DNA of 64,000 nucleotides from an uncultured cyanobacterium (lineage in GTDB: Bacteria > Cyanobacteriota > Cyanobacteriia > Cyanobacteriales > Nostocaceae), in NCBI GenBank assembly GCA_903848645.1, contig CAINGU010000082.1, positions 186,001 through 250,000 on the forward strand, in the 5' to 3' direction. Numbering within the stretch: position 1 is the stretch's first letter; each line of letters begins with the position of its first letter. Both the position numbers and the translations under genes were made by a program. Shown piece after piece: positions 45,252-50,396 of the stretch. Under the pieces are notes generated by a model. The model saw only the letters and a program-made list of their open reading frames with translations. It made no database searches and was not told where the DNA came from.

Positions 45252-47264
45252 ATGGCTGTTGCAACCCAATCCATCCAAGAACTTTGTATTAATTCGATCC
45301 GTTTTTTGGCTGTTGATGCCATAGAAAAATCCAAATCGGGACACCCTGGACTACCGATGGGCGCGGCTCCAATGGCTTTTGTCCTTTGGGATAGCTTCAT
45401 GCGCTATAATCCCAAAAATCCTCAGTGGTTCAACCGCGATCGCTTTGTTTTATCTGCTGGTCATGGTTCAATGTTGCAGTATGCCTTACTGTACTTGACT
45501 GGTTACGATAGCGTTACCATAGACGACATCAAACAATTCCGTCAATGGGGTGCTAAGACCCCAGGCCACCCCGAAAACTTTGTTACACCGGGCGTAGAAG
45601 TCACAACTGGTCCTTTGGGACAAGGAATTGCCAATGCAGTTGGTTTAGCAGTAGCAGAAGCACATCTAGCCGCTAAATTCAACAAACCCGATGCCACAAT
45701 CGTTGATCATTACACCTATGTAATTCTTGGTGATGGTTGCAACATGGAAGGTATTTCCGGTGAAGCGGCTTCCATTGCTGGACACTGGGGATTAGGTAAA
45801 CTCATTGCTCTTTATGACGACAACCACATCTCTATTGATGGTTCTACAGATGTAGCCTTCACTGAAGATGTTTCCAAACGGTTTGAAGCTTATGGTTGGC
45901 ACGTTCTCCACGTTAAAGACGGTAACACCGATTTAGCCGGAATTGCCAAGGCGATTGAAGCTGCAAAAGCTGTCACCGACAAACCCACCATGATTAAGGT
46001 GACAACCACCATTGGCTATGGTTCTCCCAACAAACAAGATACCGCTGGTATTCACGGTGCGGCTTTGGGTCCAGAAGAAACAATCGCTACCCGCAAAAAT
46101 CTAGGTTGGGAATATGATGCTTTTGTAGTTCCTGAAGATGCTCTTAATCATGCTCGTAAAGCGGTAGAACGCGGTGCAGGTTATGAGTCCGCATGGAATA
46201 CAGTTTATGCTGAATACAAGGCTAAATACCCCCAAGAAGCGGCGGAATTTGACCGTTTCATTAGCGGCAAATTACCAGAAGGTTGGGATAAAGTATTACC
46301 TACCTATACACCAGAAGATAAAGCATTACCCACCCGTAAACACTCAGAAAACTGCCTCAACAAACTAGGCGCTGTTTTACCAGAATTAATTGGTGGTTCT
46401 GCTGACTTAACCCACTCCAACCTCACCGAACTCAAAGGGGCTGGAGACTTCCAAAAAGGACATTTTGCTAACCGCAACATCCACTTTGGTGTACGGGAAC
46501 ACGCAATGGGTGCAATCTGTAACGGTATGGCGTTGCATAACTCAGGTTTAATTCCTTACGGTGCAACCTTCCTAATTTTCACAGATTATATGCGGGCTGC
46601 TATTCGTTTAGCTGCTCTTTCCGAAGCTGGTTCAATTTGGGTCATGACTCATGACTCCATTGGCCAAGGTGAAGATGGTCCTACACACCAACCCATTGAA
46701 ACCCTTGCTTCTCTGCGGGCTATTCCTGATTTAACTGTAATTCGTCCCGCTGACGGCAATGAAACCTCTGGTGGTTACAAAGTCGCAATTGAGAAATCTA
46801 AAGCAAACGCTTCGACTTTATTGGCGTTCACTCGTCAAAACGTTCCTAACTTAGCAGGTACATCCATTGCAGGTGTGGCTAAGGGTGGATATACAATTGT
46901 TGATTGCCAAGGTACACCAGATATCATCTTGATTGGTACTGGTTCAGAAGTAAGTCTTTGTGTCAGTGCAGCAGATAAGCTGACTGCTGAAGGGAAGAAA
47001 GTTCGTGTTGTTTCTATGCCTTCTTCAACCTTGTTTGATACACAAGATGCAGCTTACAAAGAATCTATTCTTCCTAAAGCTGTTACCAAGCGTCTATCTG
47101 TAGAAGCTGCTAGTAGCTTCGGTTGGCACAAATATGTCGGTAGCGAAGGCGACACTGTAAGTATTGATACTTTTGGTGCTTCTGCTCCTGGTGGTATTTG
47201 TTTGGAGAAGTTTGGCTTTACTGTTGATAATGTTTTAGCTAAAGCTAAGGCTTTGTTAGGTTAA
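45252..47264 (+). CDS. tkt: transketolase
   Basis: [51 protein letters not shown]. Confidence 0.98.
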
Positions 47265-47293
47265 TTATCGCAGGATATTCTGTGATTTTGTGG

Positions 47294-47324
47294 GGTGGGC
47301 TGTAAAGCTCACCTTTTTTTTGTT
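47294..47324 (+). terminator. Rho-independent-type terminator after tkt
   Basis: ggtgggctgtaaagctcacctttttttt. Confidence 0.75.
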
Positions 47325-47406
47325 CTATCCTAATGAATCCTGATATTGTCTTTCTCCTTTTTTTTCAGCAAACCCAATTTAAGAGGAAATTAAATATTGA
47401 AAAATA

Positions 47407-48072
47407 TTATAATGATGTATTAGATGGACTTTGACAACAATATTCTTTTGTTGCAGCAGCGTTATCTATTTGGTTTCTGAGCGTATCCATCATTTCTATT
47501 ACTATTCTATGCAATTCATCGTAATCTTTTTTATCTATATCAAGATAATTACCATGAGCTATAATGTTCCTTTTCCCTAACAATTTTTCATCTATTAATA
47601 CTTCCTTTGATTCATAGAATGAATAATCTAAACCAATCATACATATTATTTCTTTAAAAACTGATGATGATAAATTAGACGTAGCAATTCTAAATTCATA
47701 TTTTATCACACTTCGCTCATTTAATTTAGTCATAAAAAATTCTGCAACTTCATTATATATAGTTGCTTTTTCTGTTTCCTTAGCTTGATCTAATTGATCT
47801 TTCATTGCCAAAGCTATAAAATTATTTGCTAGTTGATTATAAGGTAAGTTTTGCATGGCAACAAATTCTACATAACTATTAGCAGCTACTTTAACAAATC
47901 CTTCCCAATGAGCATAAAGCATAGTAATACCACTGCGGACTAATGCATTTCTTTTTGCTAATTCAAAATCCTTTGAATCAATCAAACTTTTCAATATTGA
48001 AAGCTCTTTTTTTCGCCATGCAAGTTCTTCTGCTAACTTATCACTAAGCTGTTCTAAAGTGCGTATTTTCAT
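47407..48072 (-). CDS. HEPN-domain protein (MAE_28990/MAE_18760-like), predicted RNase
   Basis: Rx4H motif KRNIIAHGNYLDI; ITMLYAHWEGFVK N-terminal motif; 4-bp overlap with the upstream DUF262 gene. Confidence 0.82.
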   Translation of the reverse strand: MKIRTLEQLSDKLAEELAWRKKELSILKSLIDSKDFELAKRNALVRSGITMLYAHWEGFVKVAANSYVEFVAMQNLPYNQLANNFIALAMKDQLDQAKETEKATIYNEVAEFFMTKLNERSVIKYEFRIATSNLSSSVFKEIICMIGLDYSFYESKEVLIDEKLLGKRNIIAHGNYLDIDKKDYDELHRIVIEMMDTLRNQIDNAAATKEYCCQSPSNTSL

Positions 48073-49184
48073 GGCTGGAAAATTTTACGTCCCAAGGGAA
48101 CTAAGTTTGGTATTCTACGCTTTGCAGAAGTACCTGAACCTCCTGAACTTGACCACTGTTTGTATTCAGGATTTACCCAAACTTGCTTTACTTTTTCTTT
48201 GATATTAATCTCTGAATTAGATAAATTTTTGTAGTTGTAACCAATTCCTAACGCAATTACTTCATAAGCAGAAACCAAAAATCCTCCTAAAAATTTATTT
48301 TTAGTATGGGAGTATCTGCGAAAACTTTCATTTCCAAGTTGGTCATATAAAATTTCAAATGTCTTATTAAAAGCAGTTTCTTCTTCACTATAATTAAATT
48401 CTTGATTTTTAGCAATTTCTAGAATTTTATCAGTCAAGAAAATACTTAAATCATTACCTATTTTTTTTATTTCATTTTCTTCAAGAGTACGGAATACCAA
48501 AAATCTTACTAACAATTCCATATCATATTGTTCATCATTCTGTCGATCACTGAGAGCTATACATTCTTGGAAATTTTCATTTTCACTTAATTTTTTCAGC
48601 CAGTGAAACATTTCTTTATTATACATGACAAGAATACAGTTTCTTACCTCCTGTGCTGTAGCTATTGAACCACCATTATTCAATCTTTGGAATAATTCGT
48701 ATTTGGCAATTTCATCACTTTCTTTGAGAAGAATAGTTGCACCAATTTTAGCTCTTTTTATCAATAAGCGTTGGGCTGAAGTGAGAGAATTAATAGTATC
48801 ATCAGGATCTTCCCATTTCTTTCCTTCCAAATTTGGTAAATATTTAGTTTTTTCTAAAACCAATGGATCTAAAAGTTTTTGATCTTCATCTTTTAATTTT
48901 CCCACAAATTCATATATTGTAGATAATCTTTGAAGTCCATCCACAACATCCCATACACCATCGTCACGTTGAGAAACAAAGATGGGTGGAATTGGTATGC
49001 CCAGTAAAATAGATTCTATTAAGCTAGTTTTTTGACTAGAAGTCCAACGAAAAATCCTTTGAAATTCAGGGTGGATATCAATTTCGTCATTTTCATAAAG
49101 GCTGATCCATTCCCCAATAGACATTGAATAGTGATCAGATCGGATCTCTTGCCTCATTTTGTCAATTTCTTCCTTAAGTCCCAT
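48069..49184 (-). CDS. DUF262 (ParB/sulfiredoxin-like, GmrS-type) domain protein
   Basis: SIGEWISLYENDEIDIHPEFQRIFRWTSSQKTSLIESILLGIPIPPIFVSQRDDGVWDVVDGLQRLSTIYEF. Confidence 0.88.
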   Translation of the reverse strand: MGLKEEIDKMRQEIRSDHYSMSIGEWISLYENDEIDIHPEFQRIFRWTSSQKTSLIESILLGIPIPPIFVSQRDDGVWDVVDGLQRLSTIYEFVGKLKDEDQKLLDPLVLEKTKYLPNLEGKKWEDPDDTINSLTSAQRLLIKRAKIGATILLKESDEIAKYELFQRLNNGGSIATAQEVRNCILVMYNKEMFHWLKKLSENENFQECIALSDRQNDEQYDMELLVRFLVFRTLEENEIKKIGNDLSIFLTDKILEIAKNQEFNYSEEETAFNKTFEILYDQLGNESFRRYSHTKNKFLGGFLVSAYEVIALGIGYNYKNLSNSEINIKEKVKQVWVNPEYKQWSSSGGSGTSAKRRIPNLVPLGRKIFQP

Positions 49185-49562
49185 GTTATTACTCCAATTT
49201 CAAAAAAGGTAAAATCTAGAAAGCCAGCTTTTACAAGCTGTAAATGTTTAATCTTGTCAGGGTTTTATAATTAGGTTTTAGTTGATTTTAACTCAGTAAA
49301 ATCTAACTTTTAACGAGGGATGATATCGGCTTTTCTCATCCCAACCTACTTGAATTATAAGTCATGAACAGAATATTATATTACTGCAATTATCAATTAC
49401 ATAACCAGTTTCATCTACGAACATAAAAACGCCTTTACAGACCATAGCAAAAGATAGCCTGACAGATAATTACCAAATTGTAAAGGCTGGAGATACCATA
49501 GCGATCGCATCACCCCAAGTCCGCGATAAAATTTTCAAGCATAATAAACCCACTGTACAACC

Positions 49563-50396
49563 ATGCAAACCGATTGGAAAACCGTCAAAACCTACGAAGA
49601 CATCATCTATCAAAAAACCGACGGTATCGCCAAAATCACCATCAACCGTCCCCACAAACGGAACGCATTCCGTCCTAAAACCGTATTTGAACTATACGAA
49701 GCCTTTTGGGATGCCAAGGAAGATACCAGTATTGGCGTAGTCCTATTTACAGGTGCAGGGCCCCACACAGACGGTAAATACGCCTTCTGTTCAGGAGGAG
49801 ATCAAAGTGTGCGGGGACAAGCAGGTTATGTAGATGAAGCAGGAATCCCCCGTTTAAACGTCCTAGACTTGCAACGTCTCATTCGTTCCATGCCCAAAGT
49901 CGTTATTGCCCTAGTCGCCGGTTATGCTATTGGCGGAGGTCATGTTCTCCATTTAATTTGTGACTTAACCATTGCTGCTGATAACGCCATTTTTGGGCAA
50001 ACAGGACCCAAAGTAGGTAGTTTTGACGGTGGTTTTGGTGCGAGTTATTTAGCCCGAATTGTAGGACAAAAAAAAGCGCGAGAAATATGGTTTCTCTGCC
50101 GTCAATATAACGCTCAAGAAGCCTTAGAAATGGGTTTAGTTAATACCGTCGTCCCCATAGAACAACTAGAAACAGAAGGCATAAAATGGGCGCAAGAAGT
50201 CTTAGAAAAAAGTCCCATAGCCATTCGTTGTCTCAAATCAGCATTTAACGCCGACTGTGACGGACAAGCTGGTTTACAAGAACTCTCCGGTAACGCTACT
50301 CTCCTTTATTACATGACAGAAGAAGGAGCAGAAGGAAAACAAGCATTTTTAGAAAAGCGTCCCCCTAACTTCCGGGATTTTCCCTGGTTGCCTTAA
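49563..50396 (+). CDS. menB: 1,4-dihydroxy-2-naphthoyl-CoA synthase
   Basis: Crotonase fold; [59 protein letters not shown]. Confidence 0.96.

Follow-up and report, generated by a model that had tools for sequence, protein, structure and literature searches.

A DUF262-HEPN gene pair between tkt and menB in a Nostocaceae genome, probably a lesser-known relative of the phage defence system PD-T4-2

The closest described system is PD-T4-2, a two-gene system in which a DUF262 gene is directly followed by a gene for an Rx4H HEPN protein of the PF18735 kind. It has been validated against phage T4 both in E. coli K-12 and in the native ECOR65 background (Vassallo et al. 2022, PMC9519451), and its entry lists both PF18735 and DUF262 (PMC10952713). 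In addition, Anantharaman et al. (2013, PMC3710099) tabulate MAE_28990 HEPN genes in operon with genes for a ParB nuclease and a DNA methylase. Since PD-T4-2 is validated and the HEPN/ParB operon was already listed in 2013, the DUF262-HEPN kind of system is already known. Here we describe such a pair in a cyanobacterial genome (G000) and compare it with these systems. The term window refers to the whole stretch of DNA analysed, 64,000 nucleotides in length.

The locus in the window consists of the following features:
45252-47264, tkt, flanking gene of the pair
47321..49520, no strand assigned, approximate extent of the gained cassette, from BLAST against the empty tkt-menB junction of the relative G001
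47407..48072, minus strand, HEPN gene, second gene of the pair, 221 aa
48069..48072, minus strand, 4-bp ATGA stop/start overlap, read directly from the sequence
48069..49184, minus strand, DUF262 gene, first gene of the pair, 371 aa
49563-50396, menB, flanking gene of the pair

The first-pass annotation had described a minus-strand pair overlapping by 4 bp and wedged between tkt and menB as a gained cassette. Both open reading frames, their ATGA overlap and the two flanking genes were recovered at these positions, and the overlap points to translational coupling of the two genes. The description as a gained cassette was borne out by the same-genus relative G001, in which the tkt-menB gap measures 477 bp and lacks the pair. 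BLAST of the junction against L048 matched window positions 47151-47320 and 49521-49671 and left the middle without a match, and the cassette replaces about 0.33 kb of the G001-type junction. The cassette flanks showed neither a target-site duplication nor an att-like repeat, and promoter scanning gave chance-level results. In G014 the tkt-menB slot is occupied by the same pair, in G010 by other genes spanning about 7.5 kb, and in both G003 and G007 by large coding sequence rich in repeats. The very large repeat-rich sequences in same-genus relatives occupy L071:2874-8478 and L072:3439-8625, and because such relatives carry them there instead of the pair, the tkt-menB junction can be regarded as a variable site.

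For the first gene, a Pfam search assigned residues 29-185 of the product to GmrSD_N (PF03235) at 90.8 bits. No DUF1524 or HNH match was found even at E <= 1, in agreement with the earlier statement that the protein ends without such a nuclease domain, and an NCBIfam search of the pair gave no meaningful match. The motifs of the DUF262 protein are as follows:
residues 41-47, FQRIFRW
residues 81-86, VDGLQR
residues 165-169, FQRLN
residues 178-182, QEVRN

In an alignment of 83 homologues, D82, G83, R86, R167, N169, E179 and R181 are invariant. The AF2 model is confident (pLDDT 89.2), the C-terminal half of the protein is helical, and Foldseek returned BrxU as the best match (prob 0.99, E 1.2e-3), followed by SspE, ParB N-domains and PadC and, more weakly, by sulfiredoxins. 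The modelled fold is that of an NTP-binding ParB/Srx domain, and together with the DGxxR and FxRxN motifs it places the protein within the PF03235 domain family. By analogy with its relatives, we propose that the protein serves as an NTP-dependent sensor or gate.

The product of the second gene matches PF18737 at 149.7 bits (cut-off 26.8) and also PF18735 at 137.4 bits, far over the cut-off. The PF18737 match and an Rx4-6H motif fit it into the MAE_28990/MAE_18760 family. The Rx4H motif that had been read from the letters alone, RNIIAH at residues 168-173, proved intact, and its R168 and H173 are invariant along with R20, E57 and G174 in an alignment of 78 homologues. The AF2 model is all-helical (pLDDT 94.5). 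A Foldseek search of the PDB gave no significant match to its fold, and even HI0074, the top HEPN-like hit, fell short of significance. No solved chain matched the HEPN profile significantly, and among the PADLOC effector models there was no credible match. HEPN domains with an Rx4H motif are RNases in their characterised members, and on this analogy the protein is a proposed RNase effector.

The adjacency of the two genes turned out to be strongly conserved. HEPN matches were present in 11 of 60 relatives, with DUF262 directly upstream in all of these except L060, which lies at a contig end. An order-wide scan detected PF18737 in 54 of 120 genomes, and DUF262 was located upstream of 80 of the 82 matches followed up, in a few loci only as a fragment; in the two exceptions (G039 and G120) a contig end is no more than about 0.7 kb away from the HEPN gene. 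Scanning one genome per species together with viral contigs yielded 101 HEPN open reading frames in the fetched loci, 100 of them with a same-strand DUF262 gene directly upstream, an arrangement therefore far beyond chance. The remaining one (L159:3891-5648, Fortiea sp. LEGE XX443) is an in-frame DUF262-HEPN fusion of 585 aa. It hinges on the length of an AG repeat and is possibly a sequencing error, so we down-weighted it as Rosetta-stone evidence. Among 125 full-length homologous pairs, the 4-bp overlap (gap of −4) occurs in 79, the DGxxR motif is present in 124 of the DUF262 proteins, and the Rx4H motif has been kept in 122 of the HEPN proteins. The pairwise identities of the two proteins correlate at r = 0.94, a value reached in none of 500 permutations.

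Loci of this type were found in many phyla, on plasmids and in prophages. In a maximum-likelihood tree of DUF262 proteins, the window sequence belongs to a clade of 35 rows with full support. Every row has a HEPN partner of the PF18737 kind, and the sources are cyanobacteria, Pseudomonadota, Bacteroidota, Chloroflexota, Acidobacteriota, Thermodesulfobacteriota and phages. The restriction of the pair to 11 of the 60 relatives, the occupied and empty tkt-menB slots and the spread over several phyla argue for horizontal transfer, and we regard the pair, on this sequence evidence, as a widespread two-gene unit that appears to have been transferred between bacterial phyla. Its setting might suggest that the pair serves everyday housekeeping or regulatory RNA processing and plays no part in conflict: it lies here between the housekeeping genes tkt and menB, and Chrysosporum bergii (L055) and Anabaena catenula (L136) have it flanked by pheS and a recQ-like gene. 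Such a role seems highly improbable to us in view of the patchy presence, the horizontal spread across phyla and the prophage and plasmid copies adjoining restriction-modification (R-M) genes.

These mobile copies also bear on the expectation of a defence-gene neighbourhood, which held only in part. On Corynebacterium and Psychrobacter plasmids the pair adjoins type II R-M genes (PaeR7I or BsuBI), the HEPN of a plasmid record being named 'MAE_28990/MAE_18760 family HEPN-like nuclease', and in the Terrisporobacter phage TVCOM_ph1 it lies beside a DNA methyltransferase gene with an integrase close by. Elsewhere the enrichment was only moderate: of the 93 neighbours recorded at 35 loci, more were DNA methylases (5/93) than members of any other family, a small number were Dpd, CRISPR or type I restriction proteins and many were housekeeping genes, so that the sampled chromosomal neighbourhoods are suggestive of a moderate defence enrichment. 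Two individual loci carry further genes downstream of the pair. In L062 an ABC-type ATPase gene (AAA_15/AAA_21; L062:9721-10911) follows on the same strand after about 220 bp and could represent a third component for this sublineage, and in L063 an AbiEi-like antitoxin-family gene (PF09952; L063:8603-9670) follows directly.

A second, distantly related DUF262-HEPN pair was detected in the window's own genome, on contig C43 at about 78776-80247 (L064:8777-10248). Its DUF262 protein of 339 aa (VIDGQQR) and its HEPN protein of 151 aa (RHKIAH; PF18735, 54.6 bits) are again encoded with an ATGA overlap, and in the tree this DUF262 groups with that of the E. coli IncX1 plasmid p573-5. On this conjugative plasmid (L245:2851-4491), an annotated HEPN gene comes immediately after the DUF262 gene. 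The C43 and IncX1 plasmid pairs show that the DUF262-HEPN plan recurs across several DUF262 lineages. As a separate observation, 520 Escherichia plasmid records match the DUF262 query, a count that covers DUF262 only.

Comparison of the window (48069-49184) with L036:9295-10410 of G014, which shares the insertion site, revealed that the two genes have diverged to different degrees. Synonymous divergence (dS) was about 0.22–0.27 for tkt and fabF and 0.20 for HEPN, whereas DUF262 reached a dS of 0.77 with a dN of 0.18, and an elevated value (dS 0.45) was also obtained over the 5' 240 nt of HEPN. The overall identity was 91% for HEPN versus 71% for DUF262, and in no other pair compared did HEPN identity exceed that of DUF262 by so much. 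Because synonymous divergence is raised, this pattern is better explained by acquisition of a divergent DUF262 allele than by selection alone; DUF262 and the 5' part of HEPN look to have been replaced by a divergent allele at the shared site. At the edge of the G014 cassette, a menB fragment comprising the first 29 codons adjoins it (L036:8830-8916, contig C4) and the full menB lies on another contig, which indicates a rearrangement there.

The allele exchange is relevant to a plain toxin-antitoxin interpretation, according to which the HEPN RNase would be a toxin and DUF262 would act solely as a protein antitoxin, keeping the cassette stable but not specifically sensing invasion. The small size and the overlap of the two genes, one of them for a HEPN RNase, would suit it, as in MNT-HEPN systems and in the ParA-like-HEPN dyads of PMC3710099, and so would the presence of the pair on plasmids. 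However, the roughly 370-aa first-gene product has an intact, invariant predicted NTPase pocket, which is common to GmrSD, BrxU and SspE, all of which sense foreign DNA; the validated PD-T4-2 has the same plan; and an exchanged DUF262 allele with most of HEPN retained is more in keeping with a specificity subunit than with an antitoxin. Phage defence and a plain toxin-antitoxin role are not separable by sequence alone, and we consider the latter rather unlikely. A more far-reaching idea, which we put forward tentatively and would not ourselves favour, is that the PF18737 HEPN-DUF262 clade forms a defence system in its own right, as yet unnamed, with DUF262 as an exchangeable specificity module. 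If so, DUF262 alleles would be swapped in place by recombination with the RNase effector retained, and the same killer would serve to sense different invaders in different strains.

Taken together, the domains and motifs, the tight linkage, the correlated divergence, the mobility, the R-M neighbours, the second pair and the precedent of PD-T4-2 support a DUF262-HEPN defence module. The only moderately defence-rich chromosomal neighbourhoods and the absence of a significant PDB match for the HEPN model count against it. On balance we think it likely that the window pair is a self-contained, horizontally transferred anti-phage (or anti-mobile-element) module in which DUF262 gates the HEPN RNase, and for the window clade as a whole a defence role is likewise what we infer. 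Modelled on GmrSD, BrxU and SspE and on HEPN biology, the mechanism might run as follows. DUF262 would bind and hydrolyse NTP in its ParB/Srx-fold pocket and would keep the co-translated HEPN protein inactive, presumably within a physical complex. It would detect a signal of invasion, with foreign or modified DNA the likeliest candidate, by analogy with GmrSD/BrxU/SspE, and a phage product the other, and this trigger would shift its conformation or NTP state, so that the dimeric HEPN RNase is released or activated. The activated RNase might then cut host and/or phage RNA and stop phage production, with dormancy or abortive infection as the probable outcome.

Protection of the infected cell itself, with no abortive infection, would be expected if DUF262 instead recognised modified phage DNA for direct, type IV-like restriction, with HEPN cleaving phage nucleic acid or the complex nicking DNA. 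DUF262 is indeed a modified-DNA sensor in GmrSD, BrxU and GrwAB (PMC12137116), and T4, which PD-T4-2 restricts, has modified DNA (PMC9519451). Nevertheless, the window pair carries no HNH/DUF1524 DNase and characterised Rx4H HEPN domains act on RNA, and we give direct restriction little credence, preferring DUF262 gating of an RNase.

With GmrSD, BrxU, SspE and GrwAB (DUF262 + DUF1524), the window DUF262 protein has in common the N-terminal sensor/NTPase domain and the motif set QR, DGQQR-like and FxxxN. The window pair differs in that the effector is a separate HEPN protein and the DUF1524/HNH DNase expected of a GmrSD-type IV restriction enzyme is missing. Among PADLOC models, the window DUF262 scores highest (212 bits) with NsnA, a DUF262 protein of the Menshen system (NsnA/NsnB/NsnC). 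The true NsnA (L067, 438 bits) forms its own clade and is accompanied by NsnB, an ABC-type ATPase, and NsnC; the relative G014 holds such a set. Membership of the window pair in Menshen was rejected, as neither NsnB nor NsnC adjoins it, its flanks being tkt and menB, and both are found elsewhere in relatives.

The HEPN of the operon tabulated in 2013 belongs to the same family (PF18737), and the listed ParB-type and methylase genes match this pair and its methylase neighbours. In the part of Anantharaman et al. (2013, PMC3710099) considered here, it is a prediction only, with the ParB-type partner called a nuclease, and the clade structure and allele exchange do not figure there. PD-T4-2 has the same plan as the window pair. 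A true PD-T4-2 in the relative G009 scored 532 + 206 bits with PADLOC, its B protein being a small HEPN with RNSHAH, whereas the window DUF262 reached only 112 bits with the PD-T4-2_A model. The window HEPN matched PD-T4-2_B neither in hmmscan (E <= 1) nor in the genome search with model PDLC04028, and strict PD-T4-2 membership was rejected because the effector model was unmatched. Both NsnA and PD-T4-2_A fall outside the window DUF262 clade. In the literature searched we found no experiment on this clade, and PADLOC 2.0.0 has no matching effector model.

The first-pass proposal of a DUF262 sensor/NTPase controlling an RNase is thus reasonable, yet not new, given PD-T4-2 and the 2013 MAE_28990/ParB-type operon as precedents. 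Since PD-T4-2 is a proven phage defence with the same plan, the window module is probably its lesser-known relative and unlikely to be new in kind. This raises the question of whether the DUF262 NTPase gates an RNase here as it does a DNase in GmrSD, BrxU and SspE. What the comparison adds is that the DUF262-HEPN defence plan of PD-T4-2 extends to a large clade that is frequent in cyanobacteria and occurs in many phyla, and that the HEPN of this clade escapes the 2023 PADLOC models.
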